Shown here piece after piece: positions 3,413-64,000 of a stretch of DNA of 64,000 bases. The DNA comes from Sphagnum magellanicum. Lineage: Eukaryota; Streptophyta; Sphagnopsida; Sphagnales; Sphagnaceae. The position numbers and the translations under genes are program-made. The stretch spans positions 16,280,590 to 16,344,589 of the forward strand of contig CM038921.1 in NCBI GenBank assembly GCA_021904315.1, read 5' to 3'. Position 1 is the first letter of the stretch, and each line of letters opens with the position of its first letter. The notes under the pieces are model-generated. The model was not told the origin of the DNA. It did no database searches and saw only the letters and a list, made by a program, of their open reading frames with translations.

Positions 3413-4336
3413 TAAATCAAATACTTGTAAATGTTCAAATGTGTTGATACATGAATGATACCCAGATAATACCCGAGTATCATTTTTGATACTCGCCCAA
3501 CACTAGAGTAGGTGAAGTAGGTGAAGTAGTGATCATCATTAAGACAATTTAGCCAGCAATTTTTTTCTATAAACAGCATATGAAAGTATATTTTTAAAGC
3601 AATCTTCACATTTTGGGCCTACATGCTAGAACCCAATAGAGAAATCTGGGGATTTTTCAAGGAAAAAAAATAAAAATCCAAAAATTGGAGACAATAATAA
3701 TAATAATAAATCTAGCCATTTTGAAAGAAATTCAACAACTGGCTAAAATTAGGCAGAAATAAACAAGCCCCATTGGCCCCTAGAAAATGTTGAGAGCTAA
3801 TTTGTTGACAATTTTTTGGAAACTACTACTAGCCCACTAACTAGCCTACTACCTGCCTTTAAAGAAATGATGGATAGCTTGAGAGAGTGGTTTAATAGAT
3901 CCAATTATAAAAATAAATAAATAAAGGAAAAAGAAAATTCCAATTTCACTTTCTTTTGCACTAGATCATGTCCACCTATTTGTTATCTAAACCAGATATA
4001 AAGGGGCAACCGTGTGAGGCACTCTAGTTCAACAGGATAAGGTGAGATAGGACATGGGATATGACCAAAAAGGTGTATTTGCAATGCAATCCTGACTTAT
4101 GTTACAATTTTTGTCCTTTCTTTATGTTACAAGCATCACATTTTTCACCTTTCTTCAAAGGATTCCTCAAGCCCTACCAAGCGCAGCCCAAAATGCATGC
4201 AATAGGTATCTTTTGCAACAATTACAGGCTATGTAACTAGCAAGTGCTTGCAAGTTACCGTGAATAGTTGAGGTGTGTGAGTGTCAAGACTATTCACTTT
4301 AACCTCCGCAGCACTTCTCAAGTGTTGGGTTGCCAA
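3413..4336. other. Intergenic DNA without a recognised gene
   Basis: No gene is recognised. It holds the small hairpin near 3472-3492 and an ataat microsatellite near 3693-3710. Confidence 0.4.
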
Positions 4337-4651
4337 ACATATTCATCCCTCATGAGAATCAAGATGCCCTTTTTTCATCCAACATATTCATCCTTCATGA
4401 GAATCAAGATGCCCTTTTTTCATCCAACATATTCATCTTTCATGAGAATCAAGATGCCCTTTTTTCATCCAACATATTCATCTTTCATGAGAATCAAGAT
4501 GCCCTTTTTTCATCCAACATATTCATCTTTCATGAGAATCAAGATGCCCTTTTTTCATCCAACATATTCATCTTTCATGAGAATCAAGATGCCCTTTTTT
4601 CATCCAACATATTCATCTTTCATGAGAATCAAGATGCCCTTTTTTCATCGA
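4337..4651. repeat. 45-bp minisatellite, seven copies
   Basis: The unit begins acatattcatcttt, continues catgagaatcaagatgcc, and ends ttttttcatcca. It recurs at 4337, 4382, 4427, 4472, 4517, 4562 and 4607 with very few differences. Because 45 is a multiple of three, two plus-strand frames stay open across it (a 15-residue repeat in each). The flanks show no other coding signal, so I treat this as a satellite. Confidence 0.9.
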
Positions 4652-6870
4652 TGCAAAGAGTGATTATGAAATCTTCATCCAAGCAACAATGAAGGGTTAT
4701 GGAATCATTGGGCTAATGATAGCTTGGGGTGGTACCTTGTGCTAACTAACTAGTAAGTTGCTAATGAAATGAAGTTAAAAAGGTTATGGGTCTGTAACTT
4801 GCAACTCGATAGCCAATTAGAAGAGTGTCAGAATTCTCACCACGGATGGTTATGGGCAGCTAAGGAGCGAGCCCACACATCTTTGGTACAATAAGCCACC
4901 TTGAAAATAGTTTGGTTTCAAACTTTCAAATCATGTAAGAAAGTAGTTGTTCCTCACCAACAAGAAATAAAGATCACCATGTTAATCTTCAAGGTTTAGG
5001 ATTAGGATTTAGGGTTTCTTGGTTGGGGTTCCTCATCTCTTCCACACATCATTTCTTTTAGTGATTGACTAGTATACATTTTTCTCTTTTCATTTGATTT
5101 TCATCCTTTGTACTAATTACTTTAAGCAAAAAAGTTATCTCACAACCTTTTTAACATTATGCTACAAATTGCCATTATAAGAATGCTTTCCATATGTTGT
5201 CAAGACTTTATTTTTGTCTTTTATTTTTTCTCAAGATGTTTGTAATGTCATGTTTCATGTTTGCATTAACAATTGCACAAGAGTTTATCTTTCAGACCCA
5301 CTTTTGCCACAAACATTTGTGTTTGTATTTTGATTTGCCCTACCTTTTTATTTTGTAACTGGTTAATTTATATCAATAGCCAATATTCACGCTTCTGTTT
5401 GCCCTGTGAATAAAATAGGTTGGTCATTAAACTTTGCCCTTACTTGAATTGATAAGTTTGCACATGTACATCTCCATAACACATTAACAATAGTGGCCCT
5501 TCACTCTAGTGCATGCTCTAGCATTTGCACACTAACCTGACATGTCAAAAAATTAGGTAATAATTTAGGTGCCAAATATTATAAATTTTCATACTAATAC
5601 ACCTAGACAATCAATCCTCAAACGCTTCACAAGGTATTATAAATTAACAAGGAATTTACCCTTGAGCATGTCACATATGTTCAATGGTGATGATAACATT
5701 TTTAAAGGTCAAAATGTAGAGTTTAATGATAATTATGTGAATAGGTCTTTCTTCCACTTTCAATTTATCTACGCATTTTGTTATTGAAAAAATATCATAT
5801 TATACTTCAAATTTATTGAAACCAATTTCATCATAAACTAATCATACTACAAACTGAACATACTACATTGAAATGCATCATTATTATAATTAATTAAGCT
5901 GTTTAACACCCATCATTTTTCCTTTGGTCATTTTAGTCAAGCATTTGAGTTTTCACAACACCTTCCATCTTTGGCAGGTCATCTGTCTTTAAATGTTTTT
6001 GGGGCCTTTTAAATCCAAGGTACTAAGAGATCACTAAAAATCAATAATTAGTCTATATGCATGGTTTTTAGAATTTTAATCACATTAATGTTCCAAGTTA
6101 TAGGTAATTGCTAAATTCAACATCTAAGCAAAATGATACTTGGACTTGATATATATATATATTTTTAAAAAGTTGTGAATTGCTTACTTTTTCAAAAGTG
6201 TGAAATTTTTGTATTATTGTTGATGACAAAATCACAATTTCGATAAACAGATTGAAAGCACAATGTATATAAGAAGTTAACCTAAAATTTGAACATTGAT
6301 TAATGACTTTTTGAAAAAGATAACAAAAGAGTGCACCTCAAACCCACCTAAAACCCTAAACCCAATAATGCCCATCTTATAAACAAATTATGTGTATAGA
6401 CGAATTGATTGTGTGTAAATCGTAAAGTTCCCCAAATCCTACGTATTTGTTGACCTCAGACAAGGTGCATAAAAATCAGGTCCTGGAAATGACCTTTAAC
6501 CAAGGCTAAAGATCTAAAGACTCAACTTGGGAAAATAGGGGAAAAAAACTAGCAAGTGTTTTTCTATTGAAAAAAAAACTCTTGACGTAGGTAAGCCCTA
6601 ATTTTGAGTCCGGTGGGGCTATGCACACAAATTCTCATAGAGCTACTATGCACACGAATTCTTATACATGGGCCCCGGGGAAAATATTCTTGTAGGGTGG
6701 GGCAAGGGTGCTTACATTAGCATAAAGAGAGGAATTCTTCTCGGGGTTCCATTGCATTGCATAGACAATGATATAGACTATTGAGTTTTAGGACTCGCAA
6801 CCCACGAGTTTTGCATGCAAAGTGTGAGTCCAATGGAGTAATACTCTTTTGCAAGGATGTTGTGAGTACA
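4652..6870. other. Intergenic DNA without a recognised gene
   Basis: No gene is supported. There is a telobox-like aaaccctaaaccc near 6350-6362, a short AT run near 6150-6162, and a partial direct repeat around 6625-6670 (ctatgcacacgaattct type), probably transposon debris. Confidence 0.4.
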
Positions 6871-9234: not shown

Positions 9235-12200
9235 ATGGGAGCTGCTGTTGTTTTTGTTGTGTTTTTGTGTTGCTGTGCAATAGGAGGAACTGCAGCAGCG
9301 GATGATGAAGTGATCAACATCGACTGTGGTTCATTAGATAGTTATGTAGATGAAATCACAAACATAACGTGGGTACCTGATGCGCAGTACATAACAACAG
9401 GAGTGAATGCAGAAGTACCAGACGCAAATACGAGCTACCCACAGTTTTCAGAATTCACAACTCTCAGATACTTCCCTGACTCTCGGAAGAAGAATTGCTA
9501 CAGCTTGCCAGTCACGCCCAACAACACTTACTTGATCAGAGCTACGTTCTTCTACGGCTCCTATGATCAGAACATCAATGCTACAACAAATACAACACTA
9601 GAACTCCCCAGTTTTCAGATCGCTATAGACGAGACTCTTGTCTCCAATGTCACCTTCGAAAATGCTGATATTTTCACATACCGAGAATTCAGCGTTGCAT
9701 CCCAGAGCTTTGTGATCTATCTCTGTCTAGTACGAGACAACTCCAGCTCCCAATCTTCCAACCCATTTGTTTCTTCAATCTCCTTGCACCCTCTTCCAAA
9801 TTATCCTCCATTTGTTGTTGCTGATCTACTGCAAGATCAAAGATCATACTATCAGACCAAATACAGATTGGGCTTTGGCGGACAAGCTACCAATGTGATC
9901 AGGTATGTGGGTCTAGTTCGAGCTTGATTGATCTGCAAGCTTCTCTCAAGCTGTATTTCTGAAGTACAAAACTTCTCAAATTCTTTCCAAGGATTTGGCC
10001 ACAACTGCAGTAGTCTTGTCATAATATGCAGGCTTGCAGAAGAAGACCAAAACTAGCTATATCTATCTAGCTGCATGATGTTAATTCGGTGAAGACTTGA
10101 ACTGCAATCTTCTCTCACAGATCGAGCTACAAATAGTTTTTGTGTACATGCTGCAGGGCACCCAGTGATGCGTTTGATCGCTACTGGTTTCCGGGAGGTT
10201 CAGCATATGTGCAGGCGACCACTGGAGTGTTGCAGAATCTGACTACATCGGGTAATGAGACAGTCGCGGTAGCACAGAACGTCTCTGGTCTACCACCTGC
10301 AGCAGTGATGGACACTGCGGTGAGTACTAGTATTAGCGATGCCAATTTGACAATCTCGCTTCCACTAGACGTCGTCACGGGGGGCGACAATGAGACCACC
10401 AATTCTTCGACGTCTAGTAATTCTTCGACATCTAGTAATTCTTCGACGTCTAGTACTACATTCTACTTGGGACTTTACTTTGCTGAACTGAATTCCACAG
10501 CGACTCAATTTTCGCGACAGTTCTATGTCCAAGTACCACCAGCAGAAGCTACTGATGCTGCTCCTTCTTCTTCTTCTGTTAATTCTTCGTCTAATTCTTC
10601 TTCAGCTGATCCAGACGTTCTTTATGAGAATCCTTATGATATCAGCGGTGGGGCTCTCATTGCGAGCCAAGAATCTTGGCAACTGCAATATTCTTCGTCT
10701 TCTTCTAGCAACAACAGCAACAGCACTAGCAACAGCACTAGCAACAGCAGCAACAGCACTAGCGACCAGCTGCTGTTGCAAGAAAATTTGTTCGACATTG
10801 TTCTGTTTCCTGCAATGATTTCCAACGAATCTCAGCCTTTGGGTCCCTCGCTAAATGCTCTCGAGCTCTTCGAGAGGATCGACTCCATTGCCACCAGAAC
10901 AAACGACAGAGATGGTCAGTAACCTACCTACCCACCCATCTCCCTACCTACCCACCTACCTACCTACATACATACCTACCTACCTACCTGCATATTCTCT
11001 GCTGTTGAAGTCTTCTTCTTCAAATAGTTATACATACACTTATACATGTATACTTGTAATTGTACTTCTACTTATACCTGTAACTGTACATGTATTTATA
11101 CATTAAATACATGTACAATTACACTTAGCTATATACATAGTCTTTTTGTACACTAAAAGGTGTGTGCAACTAAAACAAACCAGAGACCCAGATGGTGAGT
11201 ATATTCTCCTTCAAGGAGTTATACATGTATTACTACTACATATGGTTATACATGTATACTGTAGTCCTCTTGTATACAGAGGGTGTGCCTTGGCTATGGA
11301 AAGTTGAGCCATCCACGAATTTATTGATTTCTGTGGCAGACATCCAAATGTTTGGGGTCCAAATGTGAGTAGTAGATGTGGTAAGTTTAACCAGTCTTGG
11401 GCAGTTTAGTACCCAGTTTGTCTGGTTAGAACTGCCAGTTCTGGTTCCAGTTAGTATGTTCAGAACTGGACCCAGAAATTTTGAAAAGAATGATGATTTA
11501 GGAACTGGAGGTTAATCGGAGGGTAGTCAAGAGTTAACCATTGGTTTGAGTTCAGTTTACCCCGGTCATAACAGTTGGCAACCCCAGGTCACCAGAATAA
11601 CAAAAACAAGTGCCAGTTTGCAACAAGGGTTTTGATGGTGTGTAAGGAACTGGTCAAAAGGAGTTTTTGCTTCATTAGCACGTGTCTTTAACCCATGCTT
11701 GAGGGTATCACCTTGGATGCCAGCCACATGATTGAAAACTCTCCCGGGCCTTTGTCTTTCTCTCTGCCTCAAGTGCTGAAAAGTAGTGAGAACGACAATC
11801 GAAATGTGTCATGCTGTCTTTCTCTCTGCGTCAAGTGCTGAAAAAGTAGTGAGAAGGACAATGGAAATGTGTCGAGCATGACAGTCATGCTTGCAGTAGT
11901 TAGTGATTATCACATTAGCTGTCAAATGACACCCCAAAAGTTTAATAAGCATCTGTCGAAAGCTCTAAACCCTAAACCCTTTCCAACAACAAACATCCTT
12001 TAGACTGCAATATAATAAAGCTACTATGTTCACTTATTGGTGGTGCGGGTGGAGGCTTTCATGGCAATGTACCCTATTAAACATGACACAAAATAGAAAT
12101 TTCAGTAACAGACCTGGGTACAAACTCTGTATTAATTATTAAAGTTCATCATGATTAGTCATACATGAATAATTGTGGATGTTGACCACAATAAGTGCTA

Positions 12201-15200
12201 CGGTCTATTTAGGCTATGGGCTAGAGCTATATGACTGGTGGTGATTCATTATGTGACTGATGATGAACTTATCAACATTGTGTGTTTGTGTGTGTGTGTG
12301 TATGTGTGTGTACAGCTCTTGCCATCGAGGATATAAAATCATGGCTGAACCTCACTGAGTGGACTGGTGACCCTTGCCTGCCATATCCACATTCTTGGCT
12401 CACTTGTAACAGTGTCAACATGACAACAAGTCCTTCCATTATAGCTGTGTAAGTTTTAGTTTCCTGACTCTAATTTACAGGAATACACAACATCACATGT
12501 AATACAGTTGTACACAATATTTATTATTAGCCTACTACTGTTTATATATACATTACAATAATATATTTGGGTGAAAGATCAGAAAGTCAAGTTATGCTTC
12601 TTTTTTTTTGTTTTTTTATGTAGGGGGGAAGAATTTGTTGTCATAGATGCGAGGAGGAATTTGTCAAACTACTGTAAACTAAGTTTGATCTGCGTGAACA
12701 TGTGGTGATGGATGATGGTGAAGTTGTGGTGGTGATTGGACATGGTGGCAGGGATTTGTCAGGGTATAATCTGAATGGGACTATTTGTCCAAGCTTTGGC
12801 AATCTTTCCAGTCTGACCAGCCTGTGAGTACAAACTCTTTCTTTGCTGACTCCCTTCAAAAACCCATTTTGTAATTTGTCATGGGGCATGCTCTAGATAA
12901 TAGAGCTGATCTAGCCATGAACTATATTTTGGGTCATATCAGTATAACTACTTAGCCTACATACAAAGTTTTTTTTTGTTAATTTAAGGTTTGCCTCAGG
13001 TTTATAACCTAGAACTCCTAGTAGTGAGAATTGGGATGGGGGTTGAATTTTCCCATTTATTGACTCTTACACTTTTTCCCTCGATTTTGAATTTTGAAAT
13101 ATGAAAAACTTTAGTGTTCAAACTTCAACAGGTGAATGGATCTTGCTTTGATCTCCCCCCCCCCCCCTAATGCTTTGTTTTGTTTATAACTTGATGTGTA
13201 GTTCACTTGCTAACAACGAATTGATGGGGCCATTGCCAAGTGAGCTTGGAAACTTAACCGATTTGACAACATTGTGAGCACACCAACTCCATTTAGAAAT
13301 AGGATGTTGCTGAAATTAATTAATTAATTAATTATCTAAAGGAATTGAATCGATTATCTATCTCGATTATTGAATTTTTAATGGTCTAGATGCTTTTTTT
13401 AAAATCATTTACTTTAAACACAATTTGTCAATATATTATGTCATGAAATTGAGGTTAATATATTTGATGTGCTTGTTTGTCATTTGTTTTGTAATACAGG
13501 CAAGTGCAAAATAACCACTTGAGTGGTACTCTTCCTGATTGGTTGACTTCACTATCACTGCTGACTCAATTGTAAGTATATTGTGGCAATAATTGGACTT
13601 AGCTTATAATAAGTTGTGACAATAATGAATTTAAAATTCATTTGATAATCAATATAATTAAATACATGCAATTTTCTATAAATAAGTCATACAACATGAT
13701 TGTGTCTCTAGTTTGCATGAAAATCTAGCCTTTATTATTATTATTATTATTATACTTGTCAATTTGTTTTCTATTTCATAATTCTTTGGATTTTAAAGAC
13801 TTGGCCCGGTTGATATACACTATTATGGCTACACCTAAATTTCATGTTCTCTATGTACCTTCTTTGAAATACCCAATATTTGATCTTGGAGTAAATTACA
13901 AAAGAGTTTGTCCTAAATTAGGTATATATTATTGGCAATGTGAAAGATGACACATAACATATGTGATTGGATTTTTTTTGTGACTCAGGGAGGTGCAAAA
14001 TAACTATTTCAGTGGTTTAATTCCCACACCACTACTTTTGAATCATAATTTAAATTTCACGTAATATTCTACACACTATGACCTTTTTTTCTTAATTCAA
14101 TCTAGTTAGTACCTACTATATTATTTAATCGAGTTGATTCCAAACCATCTTCTAGTAAGAATCTAAACAAATTCTAGGAACAAGTGGTTGGTGGGTACCA
14201 ATTTTTGGAAGAGAAGGTGGGTACCTAGTAGTTAGTAGGTTTCGGATTCTACTTTCCAATTAAAAACATTTGGGATGTTGATTTATTAGGCAATGCAAGT
14301 TAGATTCATGTTTGGAATACATTTAAAAAAAAGTAAACAATAAGAAATTGTTTCAATGTAGTAATGTTTACTTCTTGGTAAACATAATTTATATGGGTGA
14401 TAATTATGTGGGGGTTTTTGCATGCCAGGTATGAACCAGGAAACCCATCTTTGACAAATTTTACCACCCCATCTCCTCCACCTCCAACAAATACAACTGC
14501 AACTACAAATACTAATGCTGTAGTTGGTGCGGTCGTGGGGGCGAATTTTGCCCAAGTCGCGGTCATCATACTAGGAGTTTTGCATCAACAAGGGAAACTG
14601 ACCTTTGATTTCTGCGGCTTTTTCCGGAAGATGTGCTGTTCATTGTGGCGCAAAACTAAAGACGAGATGGAGGAAGAGCTAAACCCTAAACCCGGTGGTG
14701 ACGAGGGTGAGTTCAATTTTTCTTTCCATATTTCAAATACCATGTTTTCTAACAAAAACCACATTTGTGGATACAACCAGTGTCTTGCGGTTCTTTGACA
14801 TTGTTGATGATAACCTCTGGTTCTGATTTTAATTTTAATATTTTCTAGAAGTCAAGGAATGGTCTCTAGTTTGGGTTCTTGGAAAAAATTTGCAAATGAA
14901 TTTTGCAAAACAACCTCCAGTTGCAAGGTTCTCAAAGTCTTCAAAGAACTGGTGGATTCCATGAAAGAATTGACAAAGAACTGGGGCAGTTTTGAAGTAG
15001 TAGGTTCTGTGACCCAAATCTTCAAACTTTTCTACAAACCTGGTTAAGTAAGGGTCGAAAGTCAAAAAACCAGTTCTATTATTTTTTTGAGAACTGTCTG
15101 TCAGTCATGGGGTGTGTGATCCCTTATAGCAACTTCAAACCAATGTTGCTTTGGTATATATATAGGCTTGCATCTGGTATCAACACTAATAATATAAAAG

Positions 15201-18200
15201 ACCTTACCACCCTGGTATGACCTCAGGCAATTATACTAGCATATTATACTAACCCTAGCCTAGTAGGGACTTAAAGGCAAAGATTAGATATCTATGGTAG
15301 GCAGCAAGGGAGCTATAAACACTAAATGAAGGCTTGAATTCAGCCATTTCTTTTTAAGAACTCTACCCATGAAAGGGAGAATGTTTCCCAATGTCAATTA
15401 CAGAAAATTAACCAGTATTAATAGATCCATGCAGAAATTAACTAGTATTAATACGTACATCCATGCAGAAATTAACTAGTATTAATACACCCATGCAGAA
15501 ATTAACTAGTATTAATACATCCATGCAGAGTCTCCTAATTCCTAATCACCGCTTCCTAACTTGAGAGCTGCCGCTTCCTAACTTGAGTTGTGGCTTCTTA
15601 ACTTAAGCTTGCCACTTCCTAACTGAAGAAGCTGCTGTCTTTCCTACGTTAGTTTCATCGTTTTCTAATCACGATCCACTTAATACAAGCGGTGCTCAAC
15701 TACTAAACTAAACTAAACTAGAAGGTGTTGTTTGACTATAACTTACAACTAGTATACTATCTGAGGTCTGCAGATTACCCTACAAGTGTGGTAGGTAGGT
15801 ACATCACAAAAATTCCCCCCAAAAGAACAAAAAAGAAACATCCCTGCTTGCTTGCATTATTGGGTTGTTGACAAGTTGTTTGTTGTTGTACATAAGTTAG
15901 TTAAATTGGGTAGTTGTGAAATTTGGCCTGCCTGCAGAGTGGACAAATCATGAGGAGCAGCATACACTGGTACAGCATGTTGAAGCCCCAGGAGTTGCAT
16001 CAAAAGAAGGCATTCTTGAACCTGAACGACTTGCAACAGCCACAAGCGGGTTTGCAACAGGAGAAGCTCAACAGCAAACTCAGCAGCTTCTCAATCACAC
16101 AGTACCCCTCAACAACAACAACAACAACAACAACAACGGTCGTCCTCCTCAGCAACTGTTTGCTGCAGGAACAGCAGCAGGAGCAGCTGGTCTGGCTACT
16201 ATAGCTAGTGCTCAAGGCTTTGTTGGAGCAGCAGCTGATGCTTCCAATGGCTTTGTTGGCTCAGCTACTGCTGTTTCCAAACCAGGTGTTGCAGCTGGAG
16301 CTAAAGGACTTGTTGCAACCGAAGGAGTAAGTCTTCTTGCAGCAGGAAAATCTGGGTTAGCCGCTGCTCTTGCTGCAGCTGAGAAGGAATCTCTGGGGTA
16401 TGTGCTTGGGGCATCACATGGTACAACACTAGGGGATATAGAGGAAAGCATCAAGGAACAAGCTCAAACAGCCACTAAGAATCTCCTGCTGTCTGCAGAA
16501 AAGTCTGTAATGCAAGACCTACGAAATAGTGCTACTTCTGTTGAAGCTGCTGCAGTAGCTCATGTAGCTTCTGCTGCTGCTCATATAATAGCTGAAGGTA
16601 GTGAAGAATGGAAACATGTTTTGTCCAGCTTGGAAGATGAAAGGAAACGAGCATGGAGTACTTTGTCCAAGTTGAAGATCATCAAAGATGAGACAGAGCA
16701 AGAGCTGATGCTGTTCTCCAAGCAGATGCAAGATCGGGAGTATTTGTTCCGAACAGCCAACTCCAAGTTAGAGCAGTTGCGGAATCAACACAATGTGCAA
16801 ACCCAACAACTCAATACATTGTTGATGACGGTGAGCAGCATAACCAAAGAAGCAGCAGCAAAAGTAGCCTCAGAAGCTGCTGCTGAAGCAGTTGCAGCTG
16901 GTCAAGAAGCTGCTGCTAAAGCTGTTGCAGATGGTCAAGAAGCTGCTGTTAAAGCTGTCGCAGATGGTCAAGCAGCAGCTGCTGCTGCTGTCAAAGCTGT
17001 TGCAGATGGTCAAGAAGCTGCTGTTAAAGCTGTTGCAGATGGTCAAGAAGCTGCTGCTGCTGCTGTTAAAGTTGTTGCAGATGGTCAAGAAGCTGCTGCT
17101 GCTGCTGCTGTCAAAGTTGTTGCAGATCAAGAAGCTGCTGTTAAAGCTGTTGCAGATGGTCAAGAAGCTGCTGTTAAAGCTGTCGCAGATGGTCAAGCAG
17201 CAGCTGCTGCTGCTGTCAAAGCTGTTGCAGATGGTCAAGAAGCTGCTGTTAAAGCTGTTACAGATGGTCAAGCAGCAGCTGCTGCTGCTGTCAAAGCTGT
17301 TGCAGATGGTCAAGAAGCTGCTGTTAAAGCTGTTGCAGATGGTCAAGCAGCAGCTGCTGCTGCTGCTGCTGTCCAAGCTGTTGCAGATGTTAAAGAAGCT
17401 GCTGCTGCTGCTGTCAAAGCTGTTGCAGGTGATCAAGAAACTGCTGTTGCAGCTGGTCAAGAAGCTGCTGCTGCTCTCAAAGCTGTTGCAACTGATCAAG
17501 AAGCTGCTGCTGCTGCAGCTGCAGCAGTCCAATCCCAGATACTGGATTGTCGTACACATCTAGAAGCATTGCAACGCAGAATAGATTCCCAAATAGGTAT
17601 TGTGGATGCATTCCAAGAGTTGCTGGACACAGCAGAATCAGAGCGACAAAATCTGAATGACAAATGGCAAGCTCATAATTCCACTTGGCTTGCAGCTACT
17701 GAATGGTATGAATCTTGCAAAAGACACAAAGCAGCATTGAGCTCTCAACTCAAGTCCATGCAAAGTGGCCTACAAAGACCTTCTCTTTCTCCTTCTCCAG
17801 TACTTGCAGGAGGATTCAACGCCAGCTTCATGTCAATCGCTAATGCTGCAGCAGCTGGTGTTGTTGATGCAACAGCAGCTGCAGCAGCAGCAGTTGGAGT
17901 TGTAACTGCTGCAACTATGTCTTCTTCTTCTTCTGCTGCTGCTGCTGATGCTACAGCTTCTTCTTCTTCTTCTTCCACTGTTGAAGCTTTGAGTGTCTCA
18001 CCATGCCCATTCTGCAACAGAGGTTTCAAACCTGCATGGGCAGCACTGGTGGTGTCATGTGAGCATACCTACCACATCTGGTGTGCACTTACCCATTTCT
18101 CTTCTTCCACCAAATGCTTGCACAAGGATTGCCAGCAAGAGATGCATGCTGATTTTTGGCGCAACTCCGGCATCAAAATGCCAACAGCAAATGCAAATTC

Positions 18201-18354
18201 AAATGCAATTGTGGATGCTGCTGATGATCTTCAAGAAAACTCCTTGCATCAGCATGATGAAGAAGCACAACATCAACAACATATGGTGGAAATTTTTGAC
18301 ACAAGCACAATTGCTACAAATATCGAAGGTACCATTTTTCAACCTCAGTACTAG
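9235..18354 (+). CDS. Malectin-like/LRR receptor-like protein with a RING-H2-like cytoplasmic region
   Basis: Predicted exons are 9235-9902, 10157-10914, 12316-12448, 12752-12823, 13202-13273, 13500-13571, 13989-14060, 14429-14706 and 15938-18354 (about 1513 residues; all GT-AG, phases compatible). The protein has a signal peptide (1 to about 22) and a malectin-like domain whose first exon shows the family signatures INIDCGS, WVPDAQYI and LRYFPDS. A GDPC motif follows (WTGDPCLPYPHSW), as in SYMRK-type receptors. Four LRRs sit in four consecutive 72-nt exons. Next come a Pro/Thr-rich stalk, one membrane helix (about 646-667) and a basic/Cys juxtamembrane stretch. No kinase follows: no VAIK, HRD or DFG. 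The frame joins in phase to a coiled-coil and Ala-rich repeat region and a zinc-binding motif near 1398-1440. The first ~190 codons of exon 9 contain no ATG, which supports splicing from upstream. The ectodomain probably binds an extracellular ligand. The fusion is inferred and could be two genes. Confidence 0.75.
11754..11877. repeat. 62-bp tandem duplication in an intron
   Basis: gtctttctctctgcctcaag at 11754 recurs from 11816, and both copies continue through gtgctgaaaa, gtagtgagaa and aaatgtgtc. It lies in the 1.4-kb intron between exons 2 and 3 of the receptor-like gene, which also carries (ccta)n at 10921-10990 and a telobox-like ctaaaccctaaaccc near 11965. Confidence 0.8.
15401..15532. 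repeat. Intronic 30-33 bp minisatellite, four copies
   Basis: Units of cagaaattaactagtatta plus atacatccatg start near 15401, 15431, 15464 and 15494. A second short repeat (cgcttcctaacttgag type) follows at 15550-15625. Both are within the intron that separates the transmembrane exon from the large last exon. Confidence 0.7.
15938..18354 (+). CDS. Large last coding exon: coiled coil, Ala-rich repeats, RING-H2-like motif
   Basis: This is a single open frame of 805 codons in the receptor-like gene. Order within it: an Asn run from (aac)n near 16110; a coiled coil around EWKHVLSSLEDERKRAW; an Ala-rich region (16855-17525); a second coiled coil (QSQILDCRTHLEALQRR onward); a Ser/Ala linker; then the zinc motif at 18004-18132. 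The metal ligands fit C-x2-C-x14-C-x-H-x2-H-x2-C-x10-C-x4-C. The first six match RING-H2 spacing, but the last pair has four residues between cysteines where RING normally has two. E3 ubiquitin ligase activity is possible but unproven. The acceptor ctgcag at 15932-15937 gives the in-phase join. The stop used here is tag at 18352; a donor-like gtacca at 18329 would allow other 3' ends. Confidence 0.7.
16855..17525 (+). repeat. 33-bp (11-residue) coding repeats, Ala-rich
   Basis: The coding sequence repeats units such as KAVADGQEAAV, with longer runs of alanine between some units. Built on gctgttgcagatggtcaaga plus agctgctgttaaa, it expands in multiples of three, so the frame stays open. An 11-residue period suits a long amphipathic or right-handed coiled-coil helix, as in some LEA-type proteins. 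The antisense strand is also open over 229 codons, which is a by-product of the repeat. Confidence 0.85.
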
Positions 18355-18742: not shown

Positions 18743-18885
18743 GTATTGAGGAAACAGTAACTCAAGATATTCAAAAGGTTGAACAGTTGCAAAATGAAAT
18801 TAGAGCTACAAGCTCAAGAATCATCAAAATCATCAACCCACTACGCCAAATTGTGGTTTTTGTTTATAGGATATTTCACAACTAA
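18743..18885 (+). CDS. Possible alternative 3' terminal exon of the receptor-like gene
   Basis: If the donor at 18329 is used, the acceptor gtgcag just before 18743 continues the frame in phase. It adds GIEETVTQDIQKVEQLQNEI and further residues to a stop at 18883. The predicted piece starts as a coiled coil. Its last ~15 codons overlap a CACTA-terminus-like cactacgccaaa at 18839, which lowers confidence. Another in-phase mini-exon is possible at 21135-21178 after tttgcag. Confidence 0.3.
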
Positions 18886-35550: not shown

Positions 35551-37331
35551 CAGATTTACTCTCAAAAAAAATTTTAAAAAAATCCTCCCTAACAAAAAAG
35601 AAAACATGAAAAAAAAACACTTAATTTCAATTTGATGTCGTTCACTTGATGATGGTGATGATGTTCCCGCCCCCCCCTCAAATGATGTTGCCTCCTTTTA
35701 TACATGGCACATTCCTACTTGCCTCCTTTTGTAAACCCAAAAAAAAAATCTCAAAAATCATTTCTCAAAAACCCACCAAAAAAAAGATGACAACAAGCTG
35801 AAGGCTACAACTTATCATCATCATCATCATCATCAAGCATCCTTTGCAAAACAAAAGACAACAAGGGAGAGAGAGACAACCTACTATTTGAGAACATATG
35901 GGAGGGAGTAGAACACCCTATGGTAAGGAGTGAGCTGTTGTCACCCTTATTTTAGGTTAATTGTTAAGATAGGTTAGTAGGTAGGTAAGTTAGTAGATGG
36001 TTAGGTTAATAGGTAGCACCTACACCAAGTTGGGTGAACTAGCACCTACACAGGTACCATGGTACAAAGTACAAAACCAGTGTTCAGTGGTTCTTCACAG
36101 TTATTGACTATTGAATAATTTTATCATTGAAAGTTCAATAAAAATCAAAACCCAACAATTTTTATTTTATTTTTAAAAAGGAAATTGAAGTGCACTCTTG
36201 AAATTGTTTTGGGAAAGCACTTGAAGGTGAGTGAGATTTGATGGAGGTGAGTTTCTTAGTTTTAGAACTAAAGTGCAAGAGAGATTTGAATTTTAAAATG
36301 ATCATTTTAATTGTAATTAGAGTACATCTTCTTCTTAATTGTGTGAACAAAGGAAGATCACTCACTAAATTCACAATTTTCTATTTCACCAAGGAAGGAG
36401 AAGTTGTTTGGAGAACAAACAAATCCATATCCATCAATTTTCCCTTGGCATATATATAGGCCTTACAAGTAGCTCATAGAAAGCAATTAGCTAGTGACAT
36501 TCCAACAAGTAGAGGTTGGTTGTAAGTAACTTATATCACCCTCTTTTTCATTAGCCATATTAATTGGGGGAAGTGCCTTCTTCAACCCAAATTAGTCTAT
36601 AGCCAATTAATTAGTGCTCCCAACAGGCTAGTTAGTTAGGTAGGGTCAGATAAAGTTGTGCTTCCAAAAATAAAACAAAACAAAATAAAACTGCCAATGT
36701 GCTTCCAAAAGAAAAATAAAATAAAATACAATAAAATAAAATAACCATTGTGTCTTTCTCTACCACTGAGAAAGGAGAAAAATAAATTAAAAATAGCCTA
36801 AATTAAAAAAATTAAAAATGATGAAAAAGGGGGTGTGGAAAAAAGAAAAAGCCAATTTTTAAAAAATCAAAAGTTATCCATGGTGCCTAAGAAAGCTTCA
36901 CACTTGGTTTTTGCTGTGGCTTGCTTGCTTGCTTGTTGGCTGTGTCCTGAAGAAGTAGTTTTGGGAAACTTGGGAATAAGGTGGAGGAGGAGGAGAAGGA
37001 AGGGGGGAAGATAGTTTCCTTTCTTCCTTCCTTCCTTCCTTCCTTTTGTTGAAGAAGCTCAAGTCTAGTCTTCTTTTGTGCTGGCTTTCTGTTTTGGGTA
37101 GATTGAAGTGGTGGGTGAACTACAAAATTGGTTTCGGGTCTGGACTAGCTTTTCCTAGTATCACAGCCTTTGGCATTCACTTAGAATTTTGTAGGTGAGT
37201 GATTTTTGGGAGTAGTGAGTGAGCTTGTTTTGTTGTTTTGTTGTTTTGGTTGTTTCTGTTTTTCGTTTTTTTTTTTTTCTTTTGAGGGTGGGGAGTGGGG
37301 GTTGTAGAGTAGGTAAGAGCAGGAGCAAATC
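35551..37331. other. Upstream region of the glucanase gene
   Basis: No coding gene is recognised. Microsatellites: (atc)n at 35815-35835, ggttag/taggta words near 35960-36020, aaaat-type runs at 36660-36745, and (cctt)n at 37020-37044. The stretch 36900-37331 is probably promoter and 5' leader of the following gene; no convincing TATA box could be placed. Confidence 0.4.
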
Positions 37332-39462
37332 ATGGCCGGGAGTAGAAGGCGGGAGTTTGCAGGACTGCTGACCTTGTTGTTGATGTGGAGCTTGGGAGTT
37401 GTCGTACATGAACATGGAGTAGTAGAAGCTACTACATTGGGCGTGAACTGGGGGACTGTGGCTTTCAATCCTTTGCCAAACAGCATTGTGGTGAAAATGC
37501 TACAAGACAACCAGATCACGAGAGTCAAACTGTTTGATGCCAATCCGGATGTGATCAAATCCATGGCCGGCACCAACATCGAGGTCATGGTTGCAGCTTC
37601 CAATGATGAACTCAGCTCACTTGCCGCCGATTCTGCTGCTGCTGCTGCTTGGGTACGAGACAATGTCACCCAATACCTCGCCTCCAACAACAACGGCGTC
37701 AACATCAAGTAGGGTACACAAAACAAACAAATATTCTCTCTCTCTCTCTCTCTCACATGAAAATCTACTCCCAACACTTCTGTCACAAAAATTCTTCACA
37801 CTTGTGTGGAGCTTCACATCTTCTGTTTTTGAATCTGATGGACATTTTCTCAACAAAAATAAATCAAAATTGGTAACTACCCATTACCCAAAACTTTTGT
37901 CCCAGAAATTCTTCACATTTGTGTGGACCTTCACATCTTGTCTTTTTGAATCTGGTGGGACATTTTCTCAACAATTTGCTGTCTTTTTCTTTTTGGTAAC
38001 TACCCATTTGGCAGGTGGGTTGCAGTAGGGAATGAGCCTTTCTTGACTAGCTACAATGGTATATATGAAGATGTTGCGCTTCCAGCTCTACAAAATGTGC
38101 AAGCAGCATTGGCAAATGCAGGACATGGCAATGACATCAAAGCAACCATCCCTTGCAATGCAGATGTGATTAGCACATCACCACCATATCTCCCATCACA
38201 AGCAACATGGCGAGCAGATATTGCTACTCTCATGGTACAGATTTCGCAATTTCTCAACAACACAGGAGCACCATTCATGGTGAATTTGTATCCATTTCTC
38301 AGCTTGGTTTTGACCCCTGATTTCCCGCTTCCTTATGCATTCTTCAACTCAACATCCAACTCAATTGTCGACGGCACACATGTTTATACTAATGTTTTTG
38401 ATGCGAGCTATGATGGGTTGGTTACAGCACTCACCACTGCTGGATTTCCATCTCTACCCATCATTGTCGGTGAGATTGGGTGGCCTACAGATGGGTTTCC
38501 ATCTGCCAACATTCAGTTTGCACAAAGCTTTATGTCACAACTTGTCAATCACATGTTGAGTGGCACTGGCACACCACTCAGACCTGGTGTGCTCCAGGGT
38601 TACTTGTTTAGCTTACTCGATGAGGATGCAAAATCCATTGCACCAGGTGCCTTCGAGAGGCATTGGGGTATTTTCAATTATGATGGATCCATCAAGTACA
38701 CACTTGATCTTTCAGGTATACTTCATATTTTGTGCACAAAATTCTGGCATGTTTTCAAGTTGGGAATTTCTTTATCTATTCATTCTTTGCAGACAAGGAG
38801 CAGCAACGATTTTGTCTTTACCCTAAGTTGTAGAATATTAATGTCACAGCAAAAGTTACAGAGTATTAGGTCAAGAGGATTTCCTCTCACCAGAATAATA
38901 ATCTTCAAACTCTGAATGTTCTTGGAATCATCTGTTTTCCTTGAATCCTACTTTTGGGGTTTCAGAGAACTGCCTGCCTTTTGCAGCAGCACCTTGATTC
39001 TGTTGTTTTTACCCTGCAGGTGGTGTTGTGAATGGTGTCAACTCAAGCCTGGTTGCTGCAAAGAATGTACCTTACCTGCCAATGCAGTGGTGTGTGATAA
39101 ACCCAAATACGGATTTGACGCAATTGCAAGCAAATCTTGACTACGCATGTGACCATGGAGATTGTACAGCTACTTACCCAGGTGGTTCATGTAGCAGTCT
39201 CACACTTGAGGGCAATGCGTCATATGCGTTCAACAACTACTATCAATACAATGACCAGGATACTGGGGCATGCAATTTCCAGGGTCTTGCAGAAGTCACC
39301 ACCACAAATCCATCAACGGGTACCTGCCAATTTTTTATTGGGTTGCAGCCAACAACTTCTTCGTCCTCAACGTCTGATGTGGCACCATTCCACAGAGCTT
39401 CTCTATGCACTCTATCTCTTTCAATGGTGGTGATGTTGAGTAGCTGGATTCTGCAATTATAA
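37332..39462 (+). CDS. Glucan endo-1,3-beta-glucosidase (GH17) with X8/CBM43 domain, GPI-anchored
   Basis: Three exons, 37332-37708, 38015-38715 and 39020-39462, give 506 residues with GT-AG introns. A signal peptide (about 1-34, ending near VVEA) precedes the GH17 domain (TLGVNWGTVAFNPLP onward). The likely acid/base Glu133 is in AVGNEPFL and the likely nucleophile Glu279 in VGEIGWPTDG. Both motifs are intact, as are LLDEDAKSI and FERHWGIF. Residues about 382-467 form an X8 domain starting QWCVINPN with its conserved cysteines. The C terminus is Ser-rich with a final hydrophobic tail, as for a GPI anchor. The NEPFL motif places it with Arabidopsis glucanases 5/6 rather than the pathogenesis-related group. 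It should act on callose or other beta-1,3-glucan at the plasma membrane and wall, for example at plasmodesmata. No neighbouring gene is functionally linked. The gene looks intact. Confidence 0.92.
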
Positions 39463-58254: not shown

Positions 58255-61200
58255 TTAGGGAGGTGTAATAGGAAGAGGTTCTAGTATGCCCTTCTTTAAC
58301 CCTTCTTCCTTGTGTCTATCACAAATCCACCGAATAAGAGGACCTTGGTTACCATATTTTATTTTATGGTAATGAACCCTATTCAAACGAAATGACTTGG
58401 GTATGTTTTGTTTTTTTAAGAAGTCAACAAGCCATTGCTCAGCACCATGTTTTTCCTTTCTCAATGTAGCCTCCTTTTGTATCATATTTGTTTTTTGGCC
58501 TTGAAGAGGGTCATTTTGAGAGTTTTTGCCAATACCAGAATTGGGTAAGTAATCACTAAGGCATTGTGTGTCAAGAGCTAGTGCTAAACCTTTTCCAACA
58601 TTAGGTACCATGTCACCAATTCCTGCAACAATATGGGCACTTACTTTCAACAAAAGGGAAAAGATGCTAAGACCGATAACAAGATAAGGGACAATTTGTT
58701 GTGTTGTTGCTGACAACATTGTGATTTGACAACCTTGTTGTTCATCCACAACATGAATGCCTTCAACACATTCGCACAAAAGATGAAGATGGAATGTGTG
58801 GATCCCAGGCAACATCTTCACAATAAGTTTACGTTGCAGCTTTGCACCTGTGGTTGTGAAATAAACATTGCATGGAACTTGTCGTTTTTGTAATTCCAAG
58901 GGCAAGTTTATGATGTTGTCCAAATTCATTGCCAACATGTCATGCAAGTTCTTTTCCATGGATTGAATTTCTTGTCTTATTCCATCCATCAATCTCTTCT
59001 CCATTGATTGTAGTTCTGGAATAATCTTGTCGTGAATGGATTGAGGCAATTCGTCAAGTTTTTCAAGAATACGTTGACGAAATGATCCTTTTGATTGTAA
59101 GTCAACATTCTTGTGAATGGCATTTGTACGTCCCATTGTAACTCCACTTTGAGAACCTTGTGGATCTTCATAATCTTCATCCTTGGTGGCCGAAGATGCA
59201 TTGAAATGAACTTGAAGCTCCATGAGTTCATTCTGTTGTCTTTGAAAAAGTTCATGGGTATCCTTTTCACCCAAAAGGAACATTGCTGAACCTTCCATGT
59301 TTCCTCCAAGGTAATCATCATTTCCTTCAAGCACTTCTCGCACTTCTGGCCATGGATGTTCATATTTTGGATCAAGGTTTGCTCCCCTTAGCTCTTGTTT
59401 CAAGTCTTCCAACAATAATGCTTGATCCTTTCTATGTTTGCACAATAGAAGGTTTTCCACAGCCTTCGGCCTCAAAACCCCACGCACGAATGAAACTCCT
59501 TGGCAACCTTGAACACTACTACACAATTGTTCAATTTTGCTTAAAACATGATCATTGATGAGCTGAAAGGTTTCTGATGGGCTTTTGCATGACTTCACCA
59601 ATATGTCAATGAAAAGAGGACTTGCCATTTGATCACCACTTAATTCCACAAAGATTTCCAAACCATCTAGGAAAATCTTAATAAGATTCTTTTCATTTGT
59701 GCAAGGTGCGTTGATTGGCAAGTTCATAAAATGTTTATATAATGTCACCTGCACACAAAGATTATATGTATTAAACTTTTAATACATGAATATATGAAAT
59801 AGGAACAAAACAAATGTATTCACATTATGAAAAAATCATGTTTATTGCAACTAGGCTATCTAATTGTAATATAGTTCTATCAGACACTTTTTAGTTGTAA
59901 TTTCATTATGTCAAACATTTTAAAAATGCAATGGACGTAATTTTTTCATAATGTTATACATTTTATACCATGGGAAAAAATCTTCATAATACATTACATT
60001 GTTAGATCATCATGAAATGGCACATTATATATATATATATATATATAGAAAAGAATTATATTTACCTGAACTCGTGGAAAGAATCCTGGGGTCAACGTCG
60101 TGAGTTCTTGGTCCTTACATTGCAACCTACGACCAATGTAGATTATTTCAGCATTTTTTGGAAATTTGAATTTCCATTCCAAACGTCTTTCTCCTTTTGC
60201 AACATCTTCATGAAACTCCAATGTGGTGGGCACAAATATGAACCGTTGTCCATGGTCTGTCACTTGAGGCTCTCCTTCATATGCCAAATCCATCTTCACC
60301 ATAAGATGAACAAGATATTTTAGAATGTTGGTTGTATTGCCCATTCCATTATGAACAGTATCCTTCAATGACAAATTGAAAAGATGTTCGATTTCTCCAA
60401 TCCGACCCCAACCATATTGAAAGGTCTTTTTCAAATTGACCTTTTCAACATGCCCTCGAAGTTTGATCAAATGGCCCATCACTTCATGGCAAAACCAACT
60501 AGGATTGACCACCACAAAATCTTCTTCCTTGAAATAGATCATTTCACCAGCATCGTGCAAAAACATGGCCATTGCTACGTGTGGCTTTTCAAATTCTTGT
60601 TGAACCACCAATTGTCGCAAGTTGGGTTCTTTCTTGTCAATAATCTCCTTCTCAAAAGTTTCCATTGTAACAATGGGTTGGTCTGGATGATGTTTATTCC
60701 ATTCACACAAGCCATGTTGCACATTCATGCATGCTTCATAAATGTGCACCATCTTCTTCAAAATATCCCCACAAGTGTTGGTCACTTTAATTGTCACATC
60801 TCTTGCTTCTTGAGAAGAATGTGCATTGATCCAATAGCAAGTAGAAGATAGATTGATAAAAGCCGCAAATTTGGCTTTCAAATCGTGTAGGTGATCTTCT
60901 ATAGGACGTTGGTGAGGAAATTTTTTGTCGCCATGTGTCATGACAACCATCACTTGTGGTGGAGAAATTGATGACCTCGTTGTGTTGGATGAGATGAATC
61001 TCAACCAATAACAAAGTTCATCCTTGATCTTTTGAAAATCCTTTTGTTCTTTAGAACCTTTCTTGAATGGATTACACACCAAAAGGAAAAGACACACATT
61101 CCCTTGATTGTTCAAATTTGGGATCATTGTATCATGAAAGGCATGATACTCTTCTTGGCCAGCAAGATCCCATATAGAGATTTTTTGGTCATCACGATCA

Positions 61201-63409
61201 AGGAGGACCTTGATTTGTATCCCTCGTGTCCTTTTGGCCCATTCATTTGGATCATTGAAACAAAGCCCCAAAGGTTTGTTTAATTCAATCAACTCCACCA
61301 ATGGAATGATCACTTTTGCTTGGAGTCCCTTTGCAAGGCTCCTAACCATTGACCTCCTTAATGTAGTTTTGCCTGTATGTACATAAATGTCACATGCTTT
61401 TAGCCCTTACACTTGAGTGCACAAATTTGAAAACATGATCATATGTAATATAGTTACTTTAAATCATATGGAAATGTTTATTTTCACATTTACAAATATT
61501 TTGTTATAACAGAGTACAAATTTTGTACTTGTTCACATGGCAAGTGTTGTAAATGGAAAAATAGATTTTGTTGTTACAAATTTGGAAACATGCTTAACAT
61601 ATTTATGTGAAATTAATGTTTAATGAACATGTTTATGGCTAGTTAAACCAAAGTTGCATAATGTAGTTCAACATTATGCACAATAAATACACATGGTTTA
61701 ATGCCTTTTGAATCTCAACACATTGTTGATTACATTAATTTTCATTTGCTGTGAAAAAATTGTTTTATCTTTCCAACATACATATTTGAGGTACAAAACT
61801 TTTGCATAATTTCATGCAAAACTAATTGGCAATCTATAAAAATGTTTCATTAATTGGATGAATAAGTTTTTCCAAACCATTGTCAAATCTAAAAGTACAA
61901 CAACTAGTGTCAAAATTTATTATTAGTTTTATGAATATAATTAGAGACTTCAAATGTGCATGTGATTTTGTTTGTGTCAGGTCATAACAAATAAATGAAA
62001 TCTCTTACCTGCATATGCATCGCCACATAAGAATACTCTTGCAAACTTTGCTTGAGTTCGAGGCAACCCTTTCACCGCTGCCATGTAATCACGTGCATTG
62101 CTTGCCAATTGCGCGTTCACTTGTGCAACATGTCCACCCCGTTCCAATGCAGTGTAGGAGAAATCAATTTTCTTCAACCAATGATTGATTCGTAGAAGGT
62201 CCATGACCTTGGCCAACACATCATCCCCTTCAACATCGTCACACCCAGGTAGGCCAAGGGTGTGAAGAGTTTCATTTTTCTCCAATGACTCCAGAATGGT
62301 GCACACATCCGATGGTTCTAAACTAGGGTCATCAGCAATGGTGAGATGTGTTATCGAGTCATTCGTGAGCAACATTTGAGCAACAGCTTTTGCCCCTTCT
62401 CGTCCCATCCTTGTTTCAAGAAGGCAAAGTTGTTTAATTGATTTGTTAAGGAGCTGGTTTCCATCATCACAAGTGAGGGGCTGAAGTAACACTTTTAATG
62501 TATCACCATGCGCCTTATACTTGAAAGCTAGCGTCAAATTCTCCAAGGTTGAATTCACTCCAACATCAACCCTACGGAAGCCACTCCAATCGCATCGATT
62601 TGAGGAAGGGTTAAAGTTTTAATGCTGTGATTGTTTTGCAGCATTTGGCATAACATTTCCACACCTTTACCACCTTGATCACCTGCATAATGATGAACCG
62701 CAAGATCCTTAATGTTGTGATTGTTTTGCAGCATGCAGCAGAGCAGTTCCACACCTTTATCACTCCCAATGCCTACGCTTAGGACCTCCAATGCTGGATG
62801 GGATACCAGATTTTGACATAACACATCCATCTCCTCACCGTCCAACGTGCTCCAAGCCTGCAATTCTTTCAAGCTGTTGAGTCGACTGGCGACATCTAAC
62901 ACTTGTAGGCGCTGGTTTCTATATGCTTCGCACACTTGTAGGCGATGGTTTCTATATGCTTCCCACATGCTCCTGTTGACATTTTCCGGATTCTCATAGA
63001 ACATATCCACTGGATTGAACCCGAAACGTAAGATCTCCAATTGAGGTTCTTGTAAGGTCTTGATAAGTTCATCGAAACTTACACTTCCTTTGTAAGGTTC
63101 CATCAATACCACAAGGGGTAGTTGAGGCGGAAAGATGGGCGTCTCAGCTGTAGAACTGGGTGGTTTGAGGAACCCTGAGAGATCACCACTCTCCACTCCT
63201 TCTGCTCCCTCCTCCTCCATCGTTCTAGTGTTTAGTTCATCACAAGTCTCGTCGCTCCTGATCTCCATAGCCATCGTCGGTGGGGGAAGTTCTTGTAGTA
63301 TTTGTTTCCTTGTGTCATTGCTAGATTCTGATGAGAACCTGACCTGGCTATTGGCCAGCTGATCTATATCCCCTGGATCTATCTCCACCAAGCCTTGTTT
63401 TATGTCCAT
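58255..63409 (-). CDS. ROCO family protein: LRR-Roc GTPase-COR, TRN1-like, with apparent frameshift
   Basis: Minus-strand exons are 63409-62009, 61372-60066 and 59748-58255, about 1.4 thousand residues if the frame is restored, close to TRN1 length. The N terminus carries RI-type LRRs (for example GVEMLCQMLQNNHSIKTLTL). The Roc domain has a P-loop GDAYAGKT split by intron 1, G3 DLAGQEEYHAFHD, G4 MTHGDK and a G5-like INAHS. The COR region follows in exon 2 (FVVVNPSWFCHEVMGHLIKL). Exon 3 adds a coiled coil around EKLDELPQSIHDKI, a GIHVVDEQQGC segment and a tail with EQWLVDFLKKQNIP. ROCO proteins are GTP-regulated dimeric switches; Arabidopsis TRN1 acts in patterning, and the role here is unknown. 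In exon 1 the frame breaks near 62557: the LRR reading runs into a stop and continues in another frame. This suggests a recent pseudogene or an assembly error. Start at ATG 63409; the frame is open farther upstream. Confidence 0.8.
60027..60047. repeat. (AT)n in ROCO intron 2
   Basis: A short pure AT tract immediately downstream (on the minus strand) of the exon 2 donor. The rest of the introns is AT-rich and empty. Confidence 0.9.
62899..62964 (-). repeat. In-frame 33-bp duplication in the ROCO gene
   Basis: acacttgtaggcg at 62899 recurs at 62932, encoding EAYRNHRLQVC followed by EAYRNQRLQVL. It lies just before the LRR region and keeps the frame. Confidence 0.8.
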
Positions 63410-63442
63410 TCTCCGACAACTGGAAACCTCACAATGATGCAA

Positions 63443-64000
63443 TCGCTCTGCAACAATAGTATGTCAACGTTATTAAGTAAACATTGCTCAGTATATCATC
63501 TTACGATTTGTTTTCACAAACGAAGATTCTTCTAAGAAGCGCCAATATATTCCAGTCAGCAAGATCCATCAAACAATTCTCAACTTCTATCCACTACAAG
63601 TCGATTGCATATTGAGCGCCCAATGATAATGACCCAAGAGGTGGTTGTCATGCTCAATCTTTTGCATGCACCATCATGATAACACAAATTTCGTGCTCTC
63701 CTATATAGACAACAGGTTGTCTAGAACACAAGTTCTCTACTTAGACAATGTAACACAATAATATACCGCGGTCATAATTATAGCTCAAAATCAGAGGCAT
63801 GTTGGTGGGAGATCCCATACCTGCAAAATTGTATGAAACTTGAAGGAAGTTGCAGTTCGATAAAGTGTGTCAAACTTCCTAATGTTCTGTGGAAGCAGCT
63901 ATCAACCCACTCTTCACGTCTGCGCTTGGCCAGAACAATTAACAAGTGAACCGACCTTGATAGCTCTTCACGTCTGCTCTGCAAATTCGCATGAGTAGGG
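63443..64000 (-). other. Probable 5' leader region of the ROCO gene
   Basis: An acceptor-like gttgcag precedes the first coding exon (near 63454), and a donor-like gcag/gtatgg lies at 63821/63820, so a 5' UTR intron of about 370 bp is possible. The upstream frame (68 codons, 63778-63984) does not join in phase to the coding exon and is treated as non-coding. The transcription start may lie beyond the window. Confidence 0.35.

Follow-up and report, generated by a model that had tools for sequence, protein, structure and literature searches.

The locus analysed here raises the question of whether the ectodomain of a malectin-like/LRR plant receptor has been joined to a RING-like zinc finger at the position where a kinase is expected, and whether such a protein could couple perception to ubiquitination. 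The window, that is, the whole 64-kb stretch of Sphagnum magellanicum DNA that was analysed, corresponds to C15:16280590-16344589 of the genome searched (G000; 438,994,042 bases, ~439 Mb, in 31 contigs). The gene lies on the plus strand at window positions 9235-18354, equivalent to C15:16289824-16298943, and consists of nine exons, all with GT..AG borders, whose joined reading frame of 1513 codons has no internal stop. Exon 1 (9235-9902), delimited by its splice borders and a Pfam match, encodes a signal peptide and the first half of the malectin-like domain, and exon 2 (10157-10914) encodes the second half with Ser/Asn-rich inserts. The Malectin_like model matched the protein with an E-value of 3.7e-49 (168.2 bits against a cut-off of 24.5; best stretch, residues 29-294). 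The GDPC linker (EWTGDPCLP) is encoded by exon 3 (12316-12448) and is followed by four LRR exons of 72 bp each (12752-12823, 13202-13273, 13500-13571 and 13989-14060). Four LRR models of Pfam matched the protein weakly, all below cut-off; the GDPC motif and the LRR repeats are nevertheless present in the window sequence and are common to its genome relatives. Exon 8 (14429-14706) encodes a juxtamembrane stretch, a transmembrane (TM) helix placed by hydropathy at about 14517-14582, and a basic cytoplasmic stretch. The receptor architecture of the original prediction is thus borne out by the Malectin_like match, the GDPC motif, the LRR exons and the TM helix.

Downstream of the TM helix, the predicted in-phase splice was also recovered, with the donor GAGG/GTGAGT at 14706 and the acceptor CTGCAG/AG at 15938, both in phase 1, on either side of the 1.2-kb intron 8 (14707-15937; GTGAGT..CTGCAG). 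Exon 9 (15938-18354) encodes an N-terminal part, a coil, Ala-rich AAVKAVADGQ-type repeats (16872-17516), whose length differs among relatives in alignment A1, a second coil (17530-17802), which was called by eye and has a low-identity counterpart in some of the dispersed copies described below, the finger (18004-18147) and the stop. The zinc-ligand spacing C-x2-C-x14-C-x-H-x2-H-x2-C-x10-C-x4-C was read in the window as claimed, followed by x4-H, and an early ATG is indeed absent from this exon, the first Met being residue 191 of the translation from 15940. No kinase was found by the Pfam scan of the joined protein, and no kinase motif in the whole 64-kb window. That the protein has a single TM segment is not certain, because an Ala-rich stretch of the tail (residues 1346-1364; mean hydropathy 1.79) is also hydrophobic. 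An extra last exon at 18743-18885 was considered and rejected, since the six public relatives of exon 9 (P0002-P0007) all terminate in GTIFQ-x-QY, which corresponds to the stop at 18354, and since its reading frame is lost in the copies on contig C6.

Elsewhere in the window, a glucan endo-1,3-beta-glucosidase-type gene was found on the plus strand at 37317-39462 (GH17, 9.5e-44; X8, 3.9e-19), and pieces of a Roco-like gene on the minus strand at 58255-63463. The matches of these pieces to COR-A (3.7e-7) and Roc (9.2e-5) fall short of the curated cut-off, and the two open frames adjoining them had no Pfam match. A tandem 15-aa repeat (TYSSFMRIKMPFFHP) lies within an open frame at 4268-4663, and the window gave no match when scanned with Rfam and for tRNAs.

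A first line of evidence for the joining of the two parts is public protein P0006 (780 aa), which comes from a 2,696-bp JGI contig and starts in the TM helix (VGGNFAQVAVIILG). It runs unbroken from the TM segment into the RING-like exon through ..DDVE-EWTN.., where the window has the equivalent ..GGDE-EWTN... Its junction is exactly the predicted 14706/15938 splice, without intron letters, and intron 8 has no counterpart in it. Three origins of P0006 would account for this, namely an intron-less gene, a retrocopy or a cDNA, and any of them implies joined exons; we infer that it is a cDNA. Its span begins at the TM helix and leaves the malectin part outside. The other public relatives start further downstream. 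The initial residues of P0002-P0005, KFGLPA, correspond to part of the intron of the window gene, so these proteins were read from unspliced DNA; P0007 starts inside exon 9. The relatives in A1 are 84-97% identical with open frames, having been selected as open frames in the first place. A search with the TM exon plus the tail, over a length range admitting a full-length frame, returned the same six proteins and no full-length fused protein among the 8000 best candidates scored.

The genome search gave a second line of evidence. The TM exon had three matches in the 439-Mb genome (16 candidates scored), as had residues 1-304 of exon 9 (15 candidates scored), for which the two matches on C6 span only residues 209-303. 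The three best matches of the GDPC exon were the window locus and two C6 copies (230 matches; 150 of 1724 candidates scored), and among the 150 finger copies listed three were strong (100, 74 and 71% identity). All of these matches fall in the same three loci. As a third line, one of them, L037 (C6:20864000-20873900), has the complete order from malectin to finger, with amino acid identities to the window of 87% for malectin, 72% for exon 2, 93% for GDPC, 60% for TM and 62.6% for the tail end. It is a duplicate whose main pieces, introns included, are 79-88% alike to the window in DNA, and it is open across 1020 aligned codons, with its acceptor guessed. Both C6 copies lack window 15253-16567, a segment in which the acceptor and codons 1-210 of exon 9 lie, and the in-phase acceptors assigned to them are a guess. 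The tails of the two C6 copies, 366 and 410 codons long with the final stop counted, are free of internal stops. In the alignment of the L037 tail, gaps of 2 and 1 bases jointly restore the frame, and the remaining DNA gaps within the tail are multiples of three, leaving aside 629 bases accounted for by the large deletion. At the other C6 locus, L039, exon 4 has a 10-base gap, and no malectin exons were found in the 9.9-kb stretches L039-L041. Kinase motifs were absent from L037-L041. The proposed fusion of a receptor ectodomain to a RING-like exon is upheld by P0006, which spans the exact junction, and by the same exon order at L037; the locus very probably holds one joined gene, whose expression and membrane topology as a fused receptor are presumed.

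The finger has eight zinc ligands in C3H2C3 order, followed by M-H-x2-[FW]-W, with W-W in 8 of the 10 rows of alignment A3. Among the compared fingers a His is replaced by Cys in L029 and P0013 and a Cys by Ser in L036; these fingers were chosen by their ligand pattern (found at 11 of 20 loci) and are therefore no independent test of ligand conservation. RING models matched the joined protein weakly, below their cut-offs. When the finger was excised, the PHD-like zf-HC5HC2H was the top-ranked Pfam family (2.3e-4; 21.7 bits against a cut-off of 29.1), and zf-HC5HC2H_2 (0.0053) also ranked above zf-RING_2 (0.0062; 17.2 bits against 27.3), all three below cut-off. A PDB search with the window finger alone retrieved PHD fingers first, at E 0.074 and worse, whereas the ten-sequence profile from A3 retrieved RNF24 first (7e-4), then the non-RING fingers of Tax1-binding protein 1 (0.001 and 0.002), ARK2C and RNF165 (0.003-0.007) and RNF13 (0.0062). 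In RING domains a tryptophan, the proline of C-P-x-C and the C-x2-C end touch the E2. In the alignment with RNF24, the window finger has His for the tryptophan and Leu for the proline, and its final pair is C-x4-C. Two family copies, L030 and L033, have C-x2-C as the final pair, and for the copies in L045 and L048 zf-RING_2 ranked first (1.7e-5 and 8.6e-6), with 25.5 and 26.4 bits against the cut-off of 27.3. On the strength of the profile match to RNF24, the finger looks RING-H2-derived, although PHD-like models score slightly above RING models when it is taken alone.

Constraint on the tail was analysed by comparison of the three loci. Between the window and L037, 5 of the 162 finger sites differed, compared with 132 of the 918 sites elsewhere in the exon (p 9.8e-6), and between the window and L039 the counts were 4/162 and 126/1047 (p 5.6e-5). 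Between L037 and L039 the finger was not significantly slower (3/162 against 39/933, p 0.19). Changes in the tail are even across codon positions (51/44/42), and the Ka/Ks of the last exon is 1.48 (bootstrap 1.02-2.29). That of the finger, 2.57 (bootstrap 0.45-4.06), is computed from ten changes in 73 codons, only 1 of them synonymous and 9 not, so that the slowness of the finger could also be due to gene conversion. The ratios for malectin, GDPC/LRR and TM were 0.67, 0.53 and 0.86, with all three intervals reaching or passing 1. In simulations of 5000 trials each, a stop-free tail arose by chance with a frequency of 0.0034 after 137 random substitutions and 0.074 after 60. No purifying selection is visible in the last exon outside the finger. 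The site counts and Ka/Ks values together indicate that selection or gene conversion keeps the finger DNA slow and that the remainder of the tail is fast or free.

These results bear on the idea that the receptor directs ubiquitination. Its structural half, the fusion, stands on P0006 and the exon order of L037, but the direct coupling to ubiquitination stays conjectural, with RING models below cut-off, PHD-like models slightly higher on the excised finger, and the tryptophan and proline replaced. The PHD-like scores count against a plain RING and lower the odds of ligase activity, and an active E3 ligase in the tail is a possibility to which we would give about one chance in three. The strongest competing explanation, with close to an even chance of being right, is that the fusion is real and the finger no ligase, the tail being a PHD- or RING-like scaffold, a decoy or a functionless, drifting segment. 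The replaced tryptophan and C-P-x-C proline, the C-x4-C last pair, the slight lead of PHD-like over RING models on the excised finger and the Ka/Ks above 1 in exon 9 all agree with it; against it, the eight ligands are kept in C3H2C3 order, the profile retrieves mostly RING-H2 ligases, two family copies come near the zf-RING_2 cut-off, and no part of the exon changes more slowly than the finger when the window and L037 are compared. A decaying pseudogene with a former kinase is an improbable account of the locus as a whole. Such decay would fit the truncation of L039, the lack of a kinase motif across the window and the weak or absent sign of purifying selection, but 1513 codons are open with intact splice sites, the second complete copy is likewise open over its aligned codons (with the guessed acceptor), and so are the A1 relatives, though these were found because they are open.

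The tail has many relatives in the genome, a feature absent from the original prediction. At least 150 copies of the finger family were found (324 candidates, 150 scored), and 100 of the 150 listed, counted by eye, have stops in the matched piece. Seven far loci around dispersed copies were fetched (L042-L048). The window and L042 are 33.8% identical over 219 aa of coil and finger, and some of the fetched copies share the coil and an upstream ORF. Similarity between loci extends upstream of the finger for ~0.8-1.3 kb in L042, L043, L046, L047 and L048, for ~0.5 kb in L044 and for ~0.3 kb in L045. Several of these loci are also alike for ~0.3 kb past the finger. No Pfam family reached its cut-off on seven translated pieces of the dispersed family. 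A coil and a finger are also combined in the public protein P0013, to which 87% of the query aligns at 36% identity. At L045:3805-4905 there is an open 367-aa family member with a finger (zf-RING_2, 25.5 bits against 27.3), which may be a member of the donor family that exists as a gene by itself. The window tail is likely to derive from this dispersed repeat family; that the family is mobile is a guess. The separate ORFs P0002-P0005 and P0007, starting in intron sequence or inside exon 9, and the finger copies in L042-L048 without an adjoining receptor would also suit two neighbouring genes, the first for a malectin-LRR receptor-like protein that has no kinase and stops after exon 8, the second a coil-finger gene with its start in intron 8 or exon 9, but this risk, raised by the original prediction, is the least probable reading and a slight one, given that P0006 crosses the exact junction without intron letters, that the TM exon, exon 9 start and strong finger matches co-occur at three loci, and that exon 9 has no Met before 190 codons have passed.

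Relatives of the ectodomain are common, with 131 exon-wise Malectin_like matches in the 439-Mb genome. Kinase motifs lie downstream in 7 of the 8 relatives fetched; in the eighth, L016, none was found within its 9.9 kb. In L014 a PGNPLL juxtamembrane motif precedes the TM segment and kinase exons follow. For the joined gene, it is reasonably likely from such comparisons that in one lineage of receptor kinases a captured RING-like tail took the place of the kinase, giving a single-gene type I receptor. The ancestor would have been a malectin-LRR receptor kinase of this moss, whose 3' kinase exons would have been replaced by an exon related to the dispersed coil-plus-finger family; a duplication to or from C6 would have followed, if the order of events is as we infer. 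Outside the cell the protein would carry its malectin-like domain, GDPC linker and LRRs, and inside, beyond the TM helix, a coil, an Ala-rich spacer, a second coil and the RING-H2-like finger. The ectodomain may bind a ligand, presumably from the wall or a peptide, the coils may oligomerise, and the finger may recruit a partner, possibly an E2. Co-receptors, or else the receptor-like protein, would then be ubiquitinated or held on a scaffold. The fullest version appears rather unlikely: a moss receptor that is itself a ubiquitin ligase under ligand control, its kinase replaced by a RING-like tail from a dispersed and perhaps mobile family, so that an outside ligand controls ubiquitination inside. 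A lineage with the ectodomain retained and a RING-like tail as its new output would amount to a natural domain-swap experiment, and an exon from a repeat family would be a route for receptors to acquire new tails.

Malectin-LRR receptors are understood to pass on what they perceive through their kinase. The closest kinase relatives, which we take to be the LRR-I type malectin-like/LRR receptor kinases, share the order of malectin-like, GDPC, LRR and TM exons in their genome representatives; they have a kinase where the window gene has a coil and a RING-like finger. Plant proteins that combine a wall domain with RING-H2 do exist, since single grape ATL proteins bear a GUB_WAK_bind or WAK-associated domain (PMC5133618). 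Like the window gene, ATL RING-H2 proteins are from plants, many are membrane-bound and a wall-receptor-type domain is paired with RING-H2. The ATL finger is defined there by a Pro near the third Cys, a Trp after the fourth Cys and a C-x2-C end (PMC5133618); the window finger (VVSC, C-x4-C) has none of these traits, and its ectodomain is unrelated to that of the ATL proteins. The animal PA-TM-RING ligases, e.g. GRAIL and RNF13 (PMC4021871), resemble the window gene in having an extracellular or lumenal domain, a TM segment and a RING-H2, and RNF13 is among the profile matches (E 0.0062), whereas their ectodomain is a PA domain and their RING-H2 canonical, in contrast to the malectin-LRR of the window gene. 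Plant receptors have been divided into three classes, ectodomain-only, RLP and RLK (PMC10834447), and a protein of the window type would belong with the RLPs. No description of a malectin-LRR-RING protein was found among the open-licence papers searched, which were matched by words and not by meaning. The plan is known in outline, and the malectin-LRR ectodomain with a captured RING-like tail is new as far as the literature searches reach.
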